From Anaerolineae bacterium (GTDB lineage Bacteria; Chloroflexota; Anaerolineae; Aggregatilineales; Phototrophicaceae), in contig JAJDZV010000003.1 of the NCBI GenBank assembly GCA_022824465.1, positions 1 through 64,000 of the forward strand: a DNA stretch of 64,000 nt, in the 5' to 3' direction. This document shows, in pieces, positions 2,134-29,889 of this stretch. The notes under the pieces were generated by a model. That model had not been told where the DNA came from and ran no database searches. It was given only the letters and a program-made list of their open reading frames with translations. Position 1 is the stretch's first letter. Each line of letters opens with the position of its first letter. Position numbers and translations under genes: made by a program.

Positions 2134-2175
2134 CCCCCACCCCCAAACCCCCTCGCCCAAAGTGGGAGAGGGGGC
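2134..2175. repeat. G/C-rich palindromic repeat (family B)
   Basis: CCCCCACCCCCAAACCCCCTCGCCCAAAGTGGGAGAGGGGGC. Confidence 0.65.
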
Positions 2176-22039: not shown

Positions 22040-22705
22040 ATGTCCCTTGAATTGCTCGTGGCCGATATACAACAGCGCTTCGGTTATCAGACGCTGCGGC
22101 CGGCGGTTGAGCTGGCGCCTTTGCGCGAGACCTTGAGCACCGGCATGGCGGCGGCCGATGAACTGCTCGATGGCGGCTTGCTGCGCGGCGCGACGCATTG
22201 CCTCAGCGGGCAGCCGACATCGGGCGCGACCAGCTTGCTTTACAGTGCGGTGGCCTGCGCGCAGGCGGAGGGTTTGACGGTGGTCTACCTGGATATGGGG
22301 CGGCTTTTCGACCCGCCCAACGCGGCGGCGGCCGGCGTCGCGGTCGAGCGCTTGCTGCTGCTCAGCGGGACGTCGTTGAAGCGCGCGCTTTTTTTGCTCC
22401 GCGCGCTGGCGCAGCGGCAACTGCCTTGCCTGGCGGTCGTCGATCAGCCGAGCGCCTTGCCGCTGACCCAGATCAAAGCCGTCTTGCGCGATGCCCCCTT
22501 GACCCTGCTGACTCTGTCGCCGGTGCCCCTGCCCGGCATGCAAGTGGCGCTGGAATGTCGGCGGCAGGATTGGCGGCTGGACCGCGGGGACATCATCGGC
22601 TTCAACAGCGAATTGCGCCTGACTGCCCACCCTTTCCTGCCCTACCGACAAGTTCGCGCCACCTTCGCCATCCCGCGGGAGGAAGCATGTTCAGCGCTCT
22701 GGTGA
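22040..22705 (+). CDS. imuA: ImuA-like RecA-fold protein of the SOS mutasome
   Basis: LSTGMAAADELLDGGLLRGATHCLSGQPTSGATSLL; followed directly by an ImuB-like gene and dnaE2. Confidence 0.8.
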   Translation: MSLELLVADIQQRFGYQTLRPAVELAPLRETLSTGMAAADELLDGGLLRGATHCLSGQPTSGATSLLYSAVACAQAEGLTVVYLDMGRLFDPPNAAAAGVAVERLLLLSGTSLKRALFLLRALAQRQLPCLAVVDQPSALPLTQIKAVLRDAPLTLLTLSPVPLPGMQVALECRRQDWRLDRGDIIGFNSELRLTAHPFLPYRQVRATFAIPREEACSALW

Positions 22706-23847
22706 TTTGGGATTTGGCGGCGACCATCGAGCGCTTGCAGCAGCCAGGGCTGGGCGAAGGTCCGCTGATCCTGCTCTGCGGCGAGCATCATCTGAAGGTG
22801 CTGGCGACCGATGCGCTGGCGCGCGACGCCGGCGTCCGCCCGGGCGACAGCCGCAAACAAGCCGAATTGCTCTGCCCGCACGCGGCGCTTGTTCAGGCGC
22901 GCGACGAGGTTTATCGCCGCCTCTTCGCCGAAGTCACCGCTGACCTGGCGGGGCATATCGACAAGGTTGAGCCCATGTATCAGCCCGGCAAGGCTTGGTT
23001 TTTCGTGCCGACCGATCATCCGGGTGAACTCGAGATCCTGCGCGGGCGGGTTGAATGCCTGCTGGGCGGCAAAGTCACGATTGGCACAGCCAGCGGCAAG
23101 TTCGTGGCGCAGGTCGCCGGGACGAGCGGGGCGGCGCATTGCCGGGTGGCGCCGGGCGAAGAAGCGGCTTTTCTGGCGCCATTTCCCGCCGCGCTGCTGC
23201 CGCTGAACGCCGATATGCAGCGGCGCTTGCCGATGATGGGCATCCGCAGCATCGGCGACTTCGCGGCGCTTTCGCGGGCGGCCGTCTTCGAGCAATGGGA
23301 GCGCGCGGGCTGCTTTTGTCATGACCTGGCGCTGGGCGTCGATACGCGTCCGCTGCAAGCCTGTCAGCCGCCGGCCCTGCTCGCGGGTTCGCTATCTTTT
23401 GATGAGTCGATTGCCGATCGCGAAAGCCTGCTGGCCGCTTGCCTGCGCCTGGCGCCGGCCCTGCTCGCTCAACTGGGGGCGCGCGAAGCCGGACGGCTGG
23501 TCGTTCTGCTGGAGGATGAAAACCGCGGCAAGCATGAACTGCACTTGCAGCCCAGCGCGCCGCTGCGCCGCCTCGGGCAGTTTGAAAAGCAACTGCCACT
23601 CCTGCTGGAAAGCTTGACGGCCCAGGCCGGCATCAGCGAGCTGAGCCTGCAGCTCAGCGAATTGGCGCCCCTGCAGCCGCAGCAGCTCTCGCTCTTTGAG
23701 GTCGCGCGCGAGGGGCGCTCGCTGCGGGGCGCGGTCAATGCCTGGGGGCGGCGTTTTCATGAGACGGTTTACCAACTGAGCTTGACCGATGCGCCGCGCC
23801 ACTTCCCGCCGGCGCTGCAATACGAAAGCGAGGCGCTGAGCGCGTGA
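22687..23847 (+). CDS. imuB: ImuB-like Y-family polymerase homolog
   Basis: MFSALVIWDLAATIERLQQ.. Y-family-like; start at ATG 22687 overlaps imuA; carries QLSLF beta-clamp-type motif. Confidence 0.82.
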   Translation: MFSALVIWDLAATIERLQQPGLGEGPLILLCGEHHLKVLATDALARDAGVRPGDSRKQAELLCPHAALVQARDEVYRRLFAEVTADLAGHIDKVEPMYQPGKAWFFVPTDHPGELEILRGRVECLLGGKVTIGTASGKFVAQVAGTSGAAHCRVAPGEEAAFLAPFPAALLPLNADMQRRLPMMGIRSIGDFAALSRAAVFEQWERAGCFCHDLALGVDTRPLQACQPPALLAGSLSFDESIADRESLLAACLRLAPALLAQLGAREAGRLVVLLEDENRGKHELHLQPSAPLRRLGQFEKQLPLLLESLTAQAGISELSLQLSELAPLQPQQLSLFEVAREGRSLRGAVNAWGRRFHETVYQLSLTDAPRHFPPALQYESEALSA

Positions 23848-24143
23848 GCCGGCTGTGGGGTCGCGGTGACACTGACCCGTCGAGTCGCGCAGACACGGAC
23901 CCGACGGAAGCGGATGGCGAAGCGCTAGAGGTGCGGACGCGCGACGCGCTGCCGACGGCGATTCGCTGGCGCGGCGCATGGCACAGGATAGAGCATATCG
24001 CTTTGAGCTGGCAGCTGGACCTGTGTTGGTGGCGCGCGCGCATCTACCGCGATTATTACAAGGTGCTGGCCGGCGGCATGGCCCTGGTGATCTATCACGA
24101 CCTGCTGACGGACCGCTGGGCGCTGCAGCGGCTTTATGACTAA
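23844..24143 (+). CDS. DUF6504-like small protein of the mutasome operon
   Basis: Overlaps the imuB stop; RWRGAWHRIEHIALSWQLDLCWWRARIYRDYYKV. Confidence 0.7.
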   Translation: MSRLWGRGDTDPSSRADTDPTEADGEALEVRTRDALPTAIRWRGAWHRIEHIALSWQLDLCWWRARIYRDYYKVLAGGMALVIYHDLLTDRWALQRLYD

Positions 24144-24144
24144 A

Positions 24145-24172
24145 CCAACCCCTCCCACAAGGGGGGAGGGAC
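24145..24172. repeat. G/C-rich palindromic repeat (family B)
   Basis: CCAACCCCTCCCACAAGGGGGGAGGG. Confidence 0.65.
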
Positions 24173-24260
24173 TTTGCCTGCACATATCAGTGTCTGCTTT
24201 ATTTTCAAACGCCTGCATCGCGCGAACATCATGTCCAATACCAACTTCGCGAGTAGAGTC

Positions 24261-24301
24261 ACCCCTCTCCCTTTATGGGGGAGGGGTCGGGGGTGGGGGT
24301 G
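24261..24301. repeat. G/C-rich palindromic repeat (family B) abutting the dnaE2 start
   Basis: ACCCCTCTCCCTTTATGGGGGAGGGGTCGGGGGTGGGGGTG. Confidence 0.7.
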
Positions 24302-27300
24302 AATAACTACATCGAACTGCGCGCCCACTCCGCCTACAGCCTGCTCCGCGGCACAGCGCCGCCGGAGAGCCTGGTCGCCGAAGCCGCCCGCCTGGGCCTG
24401 CCCGGCCTGGCGCTGACCGACCACAACAATGTCTACGGCGCGGTCAGCTTCCAGAAAACAGCGCAGGCCCTGGACATCCAAGCCATCCTCGGCGCCGAAC
24501 TCACCATCGCACCCCCCTCCGCCAACGTCGAAGCCCCCCTCTCTGACGCTTCGGAGAGGGGGGGTGGGGGGAGGGGTAAAGCCCCCCTCTCTATTTCAAT
24601 GGAGAGGGAGGTTGGGGGGACAGGCAAAAGACTCCCCCTCTCCCCTCGTGGGAGAGGGGGCCGGGGGGTGAGGGGGCCGGAGGACGCCGCACTCACCCTC
24701 CTCGTCGCTGACGAAACCGGCTGGGAGAACCTCTGCTGGCTGATCACGCAAGCCCAGCACCAGGCGCCAAAGGGCGAAGGCTTGCTGCATTTCGAGCAGC
24801 TTGAAGGGCGCGCGGCCGGGCTGATCGCTTTGTCCGGCGGGCGCGAAGGCGCGGTGGCGCGGACGCTGGAAAGCGCCGGCATGGAGGTGGCTCAGCAGGT
24901 CGCGCGGTCTTATGCGGCGCTCTTTGACGATGGCGCTTTCTTCATAGAGCTGCACCATCACCGCCGACCCTATGACGAGCAGCGCGTCGCCGCCCTGGTC
25001 GAGTTGGCCGAGTCGCTCAAGCTGGAGGTCGTCGCGACCAACCATGTCCACTATCCCACGCCGGCGGAGAAACCTTTGAGCGATGTCGTGACCGCCATCC
25101 GCCACAATTGCTCGCTGAACGCGGCACGGGCGCAGCTCTTCCCCAACGGCCAGCACCACCTGAAATCAACTGAATCGATGGCGGCGCTCTTCTCGCGTTA
25201 TCCGCGCGCCTTGAGCAATACCCGGCGCATCGCGGAAGCCTGCCGCTATCAACTGCCCTCCGAATTGCAGGCCCTGCCACAACATCCCGTGCCGGCTGGC
25301 ATGAGTGCGCAGGGCTATCTGACCGGGCTTTGCCGCCGCTCGGACCGCTATCGCCCGCATATGGAAGCGCGCTTGCAACACGAATTGCACATCATCGAAA
25401 CGACCGGCTTGGCGAATTACTTTTTGGTGGTCTGGGATATCGTGCGCTTCGCCTGGGACAAGGGCATCCGCTGCCAGGGACGCGGCTCGGCCGCCAATTC
25501 GGTCGTCGCTTACTTGCTCAAGATCGCGCCCATCGACCCCATCGAGCACCGCCTCGTCTTCGAGCGTTTCCTCTCGGAAGAGCGGCAGATGACGCCCGAT
25601 ATCGACATGGACTTCGATGCCGAAACCCGCGAAGAAGTCATCCAGTACCTCTACGAAAAATATGGGCGCACGCACGCCGCCATGGCTTGCACCTTCGTCA
25701 CCTACCGCCATCGCAGCGTCCTGCGCGATGTCGCCAAAGCCTGGGGTTTTGCGCCCGCCATGCAGCCGGTTCTGCGCGACCATTGGGAAGAGCGCGGCCA
25801 GCATACCCCGCCGCATCTGGGGCAATTCTTTGATATCTGCGAGCAGCTGCTGGGCAATGTGCGCCATATCGGCATCCACAACGGCGGCGAGATCATCTCC
25901 GATGTGCCGCTCTCGCGCCGCCTGCCCACCGAGCCGGCGACAATGCCCGACCGCACGGTGGTGCAATGGGACAAAGAAGCGCTGGAAGACGCCGGCATCA
26001 TCAAAATCGATGTGCTGGGTTTGCGCATGCTGGCGGCCATCAGCGAAATGGTCGAGCGTACCGGCATCGACGCCGAGAGCATCCCCTTTGACGACCCGCG
26101 CGTCTACCAGATGATCACCGAAGCCAAGACTTTTGGCGTCTTCCAATGCGAAAGCCGGGCGCAGATGAACACCCTGCCGCGCCTGAAACCGCGCGAGTTC
26201 ATCGACCTCGTCATCGCCATCAGCTTGATCCGCCCCGGTCCCATCATGGGCAATATGGTCCATCCCTACCTGCGGAGGCGGCGCGGCGCCGAAGAAGTGA
26301 CCTACCTCGATGAGCGCCTCAAACCGGCGCTGGAAGAGACCCTCGGCGTCATCCTCTGGCAAGAGCAGGTGCTCAAAGTGGCGCACGATATAGCAGGATT
26401 CAGCCACGGCCAAGGCGAGATGCTGCGCCGCGCCCTGGGCAGCAAATACTCCTTTCAACTGCTCGACCAACTGGAAGTCGTCTTTATGGAGGGCGCGCTC
26501 AAAAACGGCGTGGACGAAGATGTCGCGCGGACGATATTCGAGCAACTGCGCGGCTTCGGCGCTTATTCCTTCGCCAAGAGCCACGCCGCCAGCTTCGCCG
26601 TGCTGACTTACCAGTCGGCTTGGTTCAAGCTGCATCACCCGGCGGTATTCTACGCCGCCATCCTCAATCATCAGCCCATGGGTTTCTGGTCGCCCAGCAC
26701 CCTGGTCTACGACGCCATGCGGGGGGGCATCAGCGTGCTGCCGCCGGATATCAACGACAGCGCCGCCGATTGCGCGGTCCAGGACGGCGCTATCCGCATC
26801 GGGCTGGGGTATGTCAAGGGCTTGAAGAGCCACCGGCTGGACCCGCTGCTGGCCGAGCGCGCGCGCGGTGAATTCGCCGATCTGGCTGATTTCATCGGGC
26901 GGGTCAAGCTGCCCCTGCGCTTAATCGAGCGCCTGATTCAAGCCGGCGCGCTCGACCGCTGGCATAAGTCGCGCCATCAGTTGCTTTGGGATGCCGGCGT
27001 TCTCTACAAAACGCGCGGACGCCTGCCCCTGCGGCTGGAGGCGCCGGCCGCGCAGTTGTCCGAGCCGACGGCGATGGAGCGCCTGAATATGGAGTTCGCC
27101 GCGACCGGTTTATCCACCCAGCACCATCCCATGCAGTACTTCCGAAAATGGTGCGCCCAGCGGCGTATCCTGCACAGCAAGCAGATGATGCGCGCGCGCA
27201 AAGGGGCAGTGGTCGAGACGGCCGGCATGGTCGTCATCATCCAAGCGCCGGAGACCGCCAAAGAAATCCGCTTCATCACGCTGGAAGATGAGTTCGAATT

Positions 27301-27541
27301 GATCAATGTGGTGGTCTTCCCCGACCTCTACCAGCGGACGCGCAAGGTCATTCGGGGCGAGCGCTTCTTGTGGTTCAAAGGCGTGGTCGAGCGCGACGAG
27401 ACGGTGACCACCCTGCGGGCGACTGGCGTGCGCGCCTTGCCACTGGACGCGCCCAGCCTGCCCAGCCTGCCCCGCTGGCGCAGCCACATGAGTATGCCGC
27501 AGCCACGCGATAGCGGCTTGCCCTTCACGGCTGGGTTGTAG
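24299..27541 (+). CDS. dnaE2: Error-prone DNA polymerase DnaE2 (ImuC)
   Basis: YIELRAHSAYSLLRGTAPPESLV PHP start, PDIDMDFDAETREEVIQYLYEKYG, GRGSAANSVVAYLL. GTG start at 24299 (track ORF starts at 24275). Confidence 0.93.
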   Translation: MNNYIELRAHSAYSLLRGTAPPESLVAEAARLGLPGLALTDHNNVYGAVSFQKTAQALDIQAILGAELTIAPPSANVEAPLSDASERGGGGRGKAPLSISMEREVGGTGKRLPLSPRGRGGRGVRGPEDAALTLLVADETGWENLCWLITQAQHQAPKGEGLLHFEQLEGRAAGLIALSGGREGAVARTLESAGMEVAQQVARSYAALFDDGAFFIELHHHRRPYDEQRVAALVELAESLKLEVVATNHVHYPTPAEKPLSDVVTAIRHNCSLNAARAQLFPNGQHHLKSTESMAALFSRYPRALSNTRRIAEACRYQLPSELQALPQHPVPAGMSAQGYLTGLCRRSDRYRPHMEARLQHELHIIETTGLANYFLVVWDIVRFAWDKGIRCQGRGSAANSVVAYLLKIAPIDPIEHRLVFERFLSEERQMTPDIDMDFDAETREEVIQYLYEKYGRTHAAMACTFVTYRHRSVLRDVAKAWGFAPAMQPVLRDHWEERGQHTPPHLGQFFDICEQLLGNVRHIGIHNGGEIISDVPLSRRLPTEPATMPDRTVVQWDKEALEDAGIIKIDVLGLRMLAAISEMVERTGIDAESIPFDDPRVYQMITEAKTFGVFQCESRAQMNTLPRLKPREFIDLVIAISLIRPGPIMGNMVHPYLRRRRGAEEVTYLDERLKPALEETLGVILWQEQVLKVAHDIAGFSHGQGEMLRRALGSKYSFQLLDQLEVVFMEGALKNGVDEDVARTIFEQLRGFGAYSFAKSHAASFAVLTYQSAWFKLHHPAVFYAAILNHQPMGFWSPSTLVYDAMRGGISVLPPDINDSAADCAVQDGAIRIGLGYVKGLKSHRLDPLLAERARGEFADLADFIGRVKLPLRLIERLIQAGALDRWHKSRHQLLWDAGVLYKTRGRLPLRLEAPAAQLSEPTAMERLNMEFAATGLSTQHHPMQYFRKWCAQRRILHSKQMMRARKGAVVETAGMVVIIQAPETAKEIRFITLEDEFELINVVVFPDLYQRTRKVIRGERFLWFKGVVERDETVTTLRATGVRALPLDAPSLPSLPRWRSHMSMPQPRDSGLPFTAGL
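24533..24677. repeat. Three family-B palindromic repeat units within dnaE2 coding sequence
   Basis: CCCCCCTCTCTGACGCTTCGGAGAGGGGGGG; CCCCCCTCTCTATTTCAATGGAGAGGGAGG; CCCCCTCTCCCCTCGTGGGAGAGGGGG. Confidence 0.8.
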
Positions 27542-27585: not shown

Positions 27586-28458
27586 CTAAGCCCCGAAGAG
27601 CGGCGTCGGCAGCCCCTTCACCCCCGGCTGGTAGCTGAACAAGCTGCCCGCCAAGGGATACTGTTTCAACTGCTCGTCCGACATGGCCGTGCTCGCTGTG
27701 ACGATATAAAGCGTGTCCAAATCAGCGCCGGCGAAAGTACAACTGGTGATATTCAGCGCCGGCATCGGCACGACTTGCAGGATCTCGCCCGCCGGCGAAT
27801 AACGCGTGAGGCGCGCGCCGCCGAAATGCGCCACCCAAATGCAATCCTCGCTGTCAGTCGTCATGCCATCGGGCACGCCTTCATCATCCTGCGTGAATTG
27901 GGTGAAGACGCGCTTGTTGCTCAGCTCGCCGTCCGGTGCCATGTCCAGGGCGTAAATCGTCCGCTTGATGCTGTCGGTGTGGTAGATGACGCTGTTGTCT
28001 CGGTTAAACGTGGGGCCGTTGCAGATGATGTAATCGCTGTCGCATTGCCGCACGCTCAGGTCAGGATCGAGCCGATACAGCGCGCCGCTCTCCTCGGTTT
28101 GGCCGATGTCCATCGTGCCCGCCCAGTAGCGTCCGCTCTTGTCGACCTTGCCATCGTTGAAGCGGTTGCCGGGCATATCGGCTTCCGGCAGGACGATCGG
28201 CTGGGCGGAGAGCACATCAAAGTCGAGCCAGACGTAGCCATCGTTGATCGTGCCGATGAAGCCGCCGCCTGCGCGCGGACTCAAGCTGGTGACTGCAAAG
28301 TCGAATGTCCAGGTCGTCTTGCCGCCATCGGCCAGAGCATAGCGGTGGACCTTGTTCTTAAAGATGTCGACCCAATAGACCGCGTTCTCCGCCTCGACCC
28401 ACAGCGGCCCCTCGCCCAGGATCGCGGGAATCTCCCATACCAACTGTACTTCACTCAT
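27586..28458 (-). CDS. SMP-30/gluconolactonase/LRE family protein
   Basis: LGEGPLWVEAENAVYWVDI, RFNDGKVDKSGRYWAGTM, GVPDGMTTDSEDCIWVAHFGG. Confidence 0.92.
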   Translation of the reverse strand: MSEVQLVWEIPAILGEGPLWVEAENAVYWVDIFKNKVHRYALADGGKTTWTFDFAVTSLSPRAGGGFIGTINDGYVWLDFDVLSAQPIVLPEADMPGNRFNDGKVDKSGRYWAGTMDIGQTEESGALYRLDPDLSVRQCDSDYIICNGPTFNRDNSVIYHTDSIKRTIYALDMAPDGELSNKRVFTQFTQDDEGVPDGMTTDSEDCIWVAHFGGARLTRYSPAGEILQVVPMPALNITSCTFAGADLDTLYIVTASTAMSDEQLKQYPLAGSLFSYQPGVKGLPTPLFGA

Positions 28459-28555: not shown

Positions 28556-28584
28556 GTACGGGCGAGCCGGTGGCTCGCCCCTAC
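28556..28584. repeat. Dispersed palindromic repeat (family A)
   Basis: GTACGGGCGAGCCGGTGGCTCGCCCCTAC. Confidence 0.65.
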
Positions 28585-28755: not shown

Positions 28756-29889
28756 CTACCAATTCGTGAACGAGCCGTCCGCCCGGCGCAGATGCGTTCG
28801 CTCGCCCAGACTGTAGGGATACTTGCCGATTGCCTCAGCGTTGAACTCGATGCCCAGGCCCGGCGCAGTCGGCGGCAGCAGGTAGCCGTCCACCCATTCC
28901 GGCTGGTTCAGCACCAGATCGGGCATGCTTTCTCCCGGGCGCTTCGGCAATTCCTGCACAACGCAATTCGGCGTCGACAAACACAAATGCAGAAAGGCCG
29001 AGCCGGCGACCGGACCGATGGGATTATGCACGGCCAGGTCGATATAATGCGTCTCGCACATGGCGGCGATCTTCTTGGCTTCGGTCAGCCCGGCGCAAAT
29101 GCACAGATCGACGCGCGCGTAGTCGATCAGCTCTTCTTCGATGATTTGGCGGAACTCCCACTTGGAACTGTATTGCTCGCCCGCGGCCAGCGGCACAGTC
29201 GTTCGGGCGCGCAGTTGCCGGTAAGATTGCGAATTCTCGACGCGTAGCGGGTCTTCAACGAAATAGGGGCGATATTGTTCAACTTCCTGGCACAGCCATA
29301 GCGAGTCCGCCATATTCAGGCGCGTATGCACATCAATGACGAGCTTGACCTCGTCGCCCAGTGCCAGTCGCAGCGCCTCAAACTCCCTGATCGCCCGCCG
29401 TACGGCCTCGTCAGGTTCCAGGATTTCGCTCTGCTGATGCGCCAGACCCCAGCGCAACATCTTCCAGCCCTCGGCCACCGACTGCTGGCAGCACTCGACC
29501 AGCTCCTCGACTGTCTCGCCATTGTTGTGGTTGTAAGTCAGCACCCGGTCGCGGACGCGCCCGCCCAGCAGCTCATACACCGGCACGCCCAGCGCCTTGC
29601 CTTTGATGTCCCACAGGGCGATGTCGATGGCGGCGATGGCGGACGTCAGAATGCGCTGCGCCGGGAAGAAACCGCCGCGGAAGAGCAGCTGCCAGATATG
29701 CTCGGTTTGGAAGGGATCCTGGCCGATCAGCAGGGGTCTGAAATGCTCAATGGCGCCAGCCACCGCCAGTTCGCGGCCGGTAAGGCCGGATTCGCCGATG
29801 CCGCTGATGCCCTCGTCGGTTTCGACCACGACGAAGCAGAAGGTGCGCCACTCCCGCGCCAGATGAACTTTGACGTCTGTGATTTTCAT
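28756..29889 (-). CDS. Mandelate racemase/muconate lactonizing enzyme family (sugar-acid dehydratase/cycloisomerase-like)
   Basis: MKITDVKVHL..GLTGREL..AIAAIDIALWDIKGKALGVPVYELLGG; KLVIDVHTRL; FVEDPL. Confidence 0.92.
   Translation of the reverse strand: MKITDVKVHLAREWRTFCFVVVETDEGISGIGESGLTGRELAVAGAIEHFRPLLIGQDPFQTEHIWQLLFRGGFFPAQRILTSAIAAIDIALWDIKGKALGVPVYELLGGRVRDRVLTYNHNNGETVEELVECCQQSVAEGWKMLRWGLAHQQSEILEPDEAVRRAIREFEALRLALGDEVKLVIDVHTRLNMADSLWLCQEVEQYRPYFVEDPLRVENSQSYRQLRARTTVPLAAGEQYSSKWEFRQIIEEELIDYARVDLCICAGLTEAKKIAAMCETHYIDLAVHNPIGPVAGSAFLHLCLSTPNCVVQELPKRPGESMPDLVLNQPEWVDGYLLPPTAPGLGIEFNAEAIGKYPYSLGERTHLRRADGSFTNW

Follow-up and report, generated by a model that had tools for sequence, protein, structure and literature searches.

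REP-like palindromic repeats in the PHP-domain hairpin loop of the error-prone DNA polymerase DnaE2 in a Chloroflexota genome and its relatives

The window analysed here is a 64,000-nt stretch of DNA from a 3.27-Mb Chloroflexota genome (coded G000; other G numbers denote comparison genomes, and the relatives named below are metagenome-assembled genomes). On its forward strand, an ORF at 24275–27541 encodes 1088 aa from ATG 24275. This ORF scores 1026.6 bits against NCBIfam model NF004225 (error-prone DNA polymerase), above the cut-off of 939, and therefore is DnaE2 (ImuC), an error-prone DNA polymerase. Its product contains the Pfam domain set of C-family polymerases (PHP, DNA_pol3_alpha, finger, HHH_6, and OB) and the catalytic motifs PDIDMDFD and IKIDVLGL. 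Because ATG 24275 falls inside a repeat, GTG 24299 is favoured as the start codon; it is probably the true start and would give a protein of 1080 aa. Directly upstream on the same strand are an imuA-like (RecA-fold) gene at 22040–22705, matched by Pfam RecA and weakly by the ImuA model NF033429, and an imuB-like gene for a Y-family polymerase homologue at about 22690–23847, whose enclosing ORF matches Pfam IMS and which is matched by NCBIfam Y-family models, all under their cut-offs. By these RecA-like and Y-family neighbours, dnaE2 belongs to an imuA-imuB-dnaE2 cassette, which is the usual arrangement for mutagenesis. DnaE2 is a mutagenesis (translesion) polymerase and not the essential replicative one, and the replicative DnaE1 has no repeat at this place; hence, the term 'essential-type' frame used in a preliminary description of this DNA was wrong. 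DnaE1 was rejected as a further repeat target, as its homologous loop is constant in length and free of repeats in five of these genomes.

Between imuB and dnaE2 is a 99-aa ORF (23844–24143) with no Pfam match; G029, G026, G032, and G016 likewise encode it ahead of dnaE2. The gap before dnaE2 (24144–24298 in G000) is ≈100–400 bp in G000, G029, and G026 and contains REP-like palindromes in G000 and G026. In G032 and G016, the preceding ORF overlaps or abuts the dnaE2 start.

Within dnaE2, an expanded hairpin loop of the PHP domain spans 24509–24688 (forward strand), with 60 codons compared to 4 in empty-site relatives, corresponding to a net gain of about 168 bp (about 56–57 aa). We confirmed that this part of the 1088-aa open frame contains the three inverted repeats reported in the preliminary description, at their reported positions, and that they encode the peptide given there. 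The repeats belong to three REP-like units arranged head to tail on the forward strand: unit 1 (24531–24578; hairpin CCCCCCTCTCTGACGCTTCGGAGAGGGGGG and a G-rich tail), unit 2 (24579–24629; hairpin CCCCCCTCTCTATTTCAATGGAGAGGGAGG and tail TTGGGGGGACAGG), and unit 3 (24630–24681; hairpin CCCCCTCTCCCCTCGTGGGAGAGGGGG and tail CCGGGGGGTGAGGG). The spacings are 48 bp from unit 1 to unit 2 and 51 bp from unit 2 to unit 3, and thus the three units share one reading frame, encoding ...APLSDASERGGGGRGK, APLSISMEREVGGTGK, and LPLSPRGRGGRGVRG. Unit 3 is nearest to the genome consensus, with BLAST matches of 95% to G000:C2:15780-15823 and other copies. Each unit is a short palindrome capable of forming a stem-loop, and mRNA folding of the insert segment gave z = -2.67 relative to dinucleotide shuffles. 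Two of the six strong inverted repeats in the window (arms of ≥12 bases with ≤1 mismatch and a loop of 3–12) lie within the dnaE2 insert, compared to 0–1 strong inverted repeats in three mononucleotide-shuffled control windows. An Rfam search around the insert site returned no match.

Copies of this repeat are dispersed in the G000 genome, which was searched by pattern and by BLAST. The pattern CCCCTCNCN{3,30}GNGAGGGG has 39 forward matches, which reduce to 36 distinct places (one a chance match) once overlaps are removed, compared to 0 for the reversed control, and BLAST likewise recovers copies outside dnaE2; many dispersed copies are a property of REPs. The copies have a common architecture, approximately GCGCTCCCCCTCTCTGATGATTCGGAGAGGGGGCCGGGGGGTGAGGTAGAC, in which an asymmetric tail comes after the hairpin. 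The similar palindromes that the preliminary description noted elsewhere in the window are real. One same-family intergenic copy at 24262–24301 (forward strand; palindrome at 24262–24286) has a tail (GGGGGTGGGGGTG) that runs into the dnaE2 start, a second was detected at 2135–2173 (reverse strand) by the inverted-repeat, pattern, and BLAST searches, and the inverted-repeat search also found a shorter related palindrome at 24149–24167 (forward strand), between the upstream ORF and dnaE2. Gene overlap was checked for the ten longest overlapping ORFs, among which, beyond dnaE2, there is one clear internal copy and some copies at gene ends. The internal copy is an in-frame REP in the G000 dihydrolipoyl (E2) acyltransferase (L077:553-1935, reverse strand), in the flexible linker that separates the lipoyl from the E3-binding domain, which makes this enzyme a second G000 protein with a repeat-encoded segment. 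A match in the ribonucleotide reductase gene was dismissed as chance, being protein-coding sequence (IPSPEDSREG) inside a conserved domain, and the intragenic count leaves out matches close to the start of the PrpD, OppC, and BPD-permease ORFs, as these fall ahead of the domains.

In the G000 units, neither a GTAG nor a CGTC tag directly adjoins the palindrome; instead, the foot is C-rich and the asymmetric tail G-rich. Moreover, no Y1-type transposase was found in the G000 assembly, which is 87% complete. With neither tag nor transposase, we therefore infer the mode of movement of this family. Elsewhere in the window, a GTAG-type REP (GTACGGGCGAGCCGGTGGCTCGCCCCTAC) is present at 28556–28584, in the gap between the ORFs at 27586–28458 and 28756–29889, and thus a relative of the GTAG family of sister species is present in G000.

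Comparison with related genomes revealed both empty and filled sites. In three species of the same genus, G029, G032, and G016, the site is empty and is a 4-residue turn (GAELTLEGDHALTLL, GAELTLDDETALNLL, and GAELTLEHDLALPLL, respectively), as in most DnaE2 of the class. The short linker that the preliminary description took as normal is thus the common state, and the ordinary linker in all related DnaE2 that would have spoken against its proposal was not found. Five other relatives (G026, G028, G011, G002, and G018) hold repeats at the same turn. The loop is in frame wherever the assembly is complete, with 55 codons in G026 and 80 codons in G028, and the contigs of G011, G002, and G018 stop within the insert. 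The inserts of these five relatives consist for the most part of another REP family, one with a GTAG tag (GGGCGAGACnnGTCTCGCCCCTAC), whose palindrome, GGGCGAGACAAGTCTCGCCCCTACAG, differs from that of the G000 family. Matches to the GTAG REP on both strands number 43 in G026, 28 in G028, 26 in G011, 11 in G002, and 5 in G018, compared to 0–1 in G000, G029, G032, and G016 and 0 for the control pattern. The three genomes richest in this REP are those with a RAYT-like gene or a Y1_Tnp match: RAYT-like ORFs in G026 and G028 match NF047646 with E values of about 1e-18 (66.9 and 68.8 bits, below the curated cut-off of 80), and G011 has a matching Y1_Tnp match. The N-terminal part of the RAYT-like ORFs from these REP-rich genomes (L196:1456-2307, reverse strand; L197:1033-1710, forward strand) is itself a repeat run (GKPTRHSNRVA...).

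The inserts also bear signs of turnover. In one REP, the G026 and G028 versions have different loops and differ in their two arms in a matching way, a pattern suggestive of exchange with other copies. The spacer CAGTCTGCGCTAAAGGC is confined to the dnaE2 inserts of three genomes, G018, G026, and G028, implying that the insert was partly inherited and then altered. In the gene tree, G018 is the sister of G000, and thus the G000 ancestor probably already had an insert, which would later have been replaced. G029, with its empty site, is nested within the insert-bearing group on weakly supported local branches, consistent with either loss or repeated gain.

The AlphaFold model of DnaE2 (mean pLDDT 86.3) has strands at residues 69–78 and 138–144 and is folded in the remainder, and the stretch between these strands (79–137) is mostly under pLDDT 50 (residues 85–132 below 50). 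The insert is thus predicted to loop out, disordered, from a PHP-domain beta-hairpin and to leave the fold intact. The solved structures closest to the model are DnaE polymerases, and by sequence alignment the insert site falls between residues 72 and 78 of E. coli DnaE. The known exonuclease insertion of PolC lies in the PHP domain (PMC3919608). Alignments to two deposited structures (chains 9qpc_A and 3f2b_A), obtained with a PolC fragment as the search probe, show that the PolC strands IYGLEANIVDDG and PFHVTLLAQNETG, which match the hairpin flanks, border this exonuclease domain; in alignment, then, the DnaE2 insert site corresponds to the place of the PolC exonuclease insertion.

Among 44 DnaE2 of the class, the hairpin loop is the position richest in insertions. 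In G267, from a distant, unrelated lineage, the loop insert is another genomic repeat, matched 57 times by BLAST within its own genome. For G116 and G338, from two other lineages, the longer loops were not genomic repeats at the search sensitivity used, and these candidates were not supported. The latter result implies that ordinary loop growth happens at the hairpin too, and that the site is generally permissive rather than specifically targeted. Another lineage, G156, has a minisatellite-like Gly/Ala stretch of about 58 codons in this PHP loop of its DnaE2 (L182).

We consider it very likely that REP-like elements inserted into the turn of this DnaE2 beta-hairpin and have since been gained, lost, and exchanged there, their insertion and turnover being tolerated because the hairpin is structurally permissive. 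A long excursion from this loop would leave the fold and the active site untouched. Insertions that break the frame or the fold would be purged, and in-frame C-/G-rich palindromes, which code for few stops, would therefore remain. Insertion may have occurred through a RAYT-type transposase, a route that is plausible for the GTAG family and less certain for the CCCCTCTC family, or through repeat-mediated recombination, and the effect of the insert on the enzyme would be close to neutral. Counting against REP insertion are the missing Y1 transposase in the 87% complete G000 assembly and the lack of a target-site duplication in an unsystematic search. The repeat copies elsewhere in the genome, the empty site of close relatives, and the open frame support the earlier proposal that a REP/MITE-like element colonised the frame without breaking it. 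The 'new protein segment' proposed at the same time holds as far as the open frame goes, from which we infer that the insert is translated.

Other explanations fit these observations less well. A long simple-sequence loop characteristic of the group, grown by slippage without any mobile element, would agree with the variation in loop length across the class, where some long loops are minisatellite-like or unique (L182, L153, and L150). However, we regard such an ordinary linker as very unlikely, given that the G000 units match genome copies elsewhere (36 places compared to 0 for the control) and that a second, different dispersed family occupies the site in five relatives. It is still less probable that dnaE2 is a decaying pseudogene in which selection against insertions is gone, even though the gap upstream of dnaE2 is also repeat-filled and fragmentary dnaE2 matches with stops occur in G004 and G033. 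Outside the insert, dN/dS between G000 and its relatives is 0.07–0.15, with no stops in G000 and these relatives over 488 codons, and the domain set is full, including both catalytic motifs; by its sequence, dnaE2 apart from the insert is under purifying selection and the gene is functional. An assembly or binning artefact at the repeat might be suspected from the contigs of three relatives that end within the insert, which mark the site as difficult to assemble. Yet the frame remains open, G026 and G028 were assembled through an in-frame insert, and an identical unique spacer occurs in three independent bins. Assembly error, a concern already raised in the preliminary description, is unlikely because independently assembled genomes have repeats at the same site, and we give an artefact the least credence of these readings.

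Alternatively, co-option might have turned the loop into a disordered arm, rich in Gly and Arg, that contacts DNA, RNA, or partners in the mutasome and thereby alters damage-induced mutagenesis. The G000 and G028 inserts are rich in Gly and have a net basic charge (R+K 10 versus D+E 7, and 14 versus 7, respectively), the insert is partly inherited across species, and Di Nocera et al. speculated that REPs in DnaE2 and repair genes add to mutator states (PMC3733652). By contrast, neither the length nor the sequence of the insert is conserved, the G026 insert is charge-neutral, and the composition results from reading G-rich repeat tails. In addition, the empty site of G029, nested among insert carriers with weak local support, implies that such an arm is dispensable. 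We therefore consider co-option unlikely. Equally speculative is a broader scheme in which the PHP hairpin of C-family polymerases would be a general landing site where repeats seed disordered Gly/Arg-rich arms, some of them binding nucleic acid or mutasome partners and tuning mutagenesis, with the PolC exonuclease as an ancient, successful occupant.

Tolerated REP insertion and turnover, our preferred explanation, suggests that the DnaE2 PHP loop is able to take up foreign DNA without breaking the enzyme. The genus offers a natural comparison, in which the same loop is empty or filled with one repeat family or another, for a question left from 2013: whether repeats in repair polymerases are harmless or create mutators. 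The match to the PolC exonuclease site suggests that a polymerase may gain a domain via a turn where nearly every insertion that keeps the frame is tolerated.

In-frame REPs were reported in many repair genes, with DnaE2 named, by Di Nocera et al. in 2013, who made the case that such repeats are neutral in loops and also that they may have mutator effects (PMC3733652), and thus the kind of insertion described here is known. Like their REPs, the present ones are short palindromes with dispersed copies that occur singly or in groups and lie in frame in an error-prone DnaE2; their grouped intragenic REPs encode 43–82 aa (PMC3733652). The GTAG tag and RAYT-like gene of G000 relatives likewise resemble the GTAG/CGTC-REP system (PMC3733652), whereas the G000 family has neither tag directly beside its palindrome. 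Rickettsia palindromic elements also lie in frame in functional genes and add a peptide segment (as described in PMC3733652), but they belong to another phylum and are other repeats, and we set them beside the present case by description only. In the earlier survey, insertion sites differed among genes of one category, except for recB in Xanthomonas (PMC3733652). Here, by contrast, sister species carry two repeat families in a single dnaE2 loop, and a distant lineage has a third there. As in PolC-type DNA polymerase III, the same PHP hairpin accommodates an insertion; unlike PolC, which gained a folded, functional exonuclease domain, DnaE2 has a repeat-derived insert that is predicted to be disordered. 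What is new is that, in sister species, unrelated repeats have repeatedly occupied one homologous loop, that near relatives have the site empty, and that the site corresponds to that of PolC.
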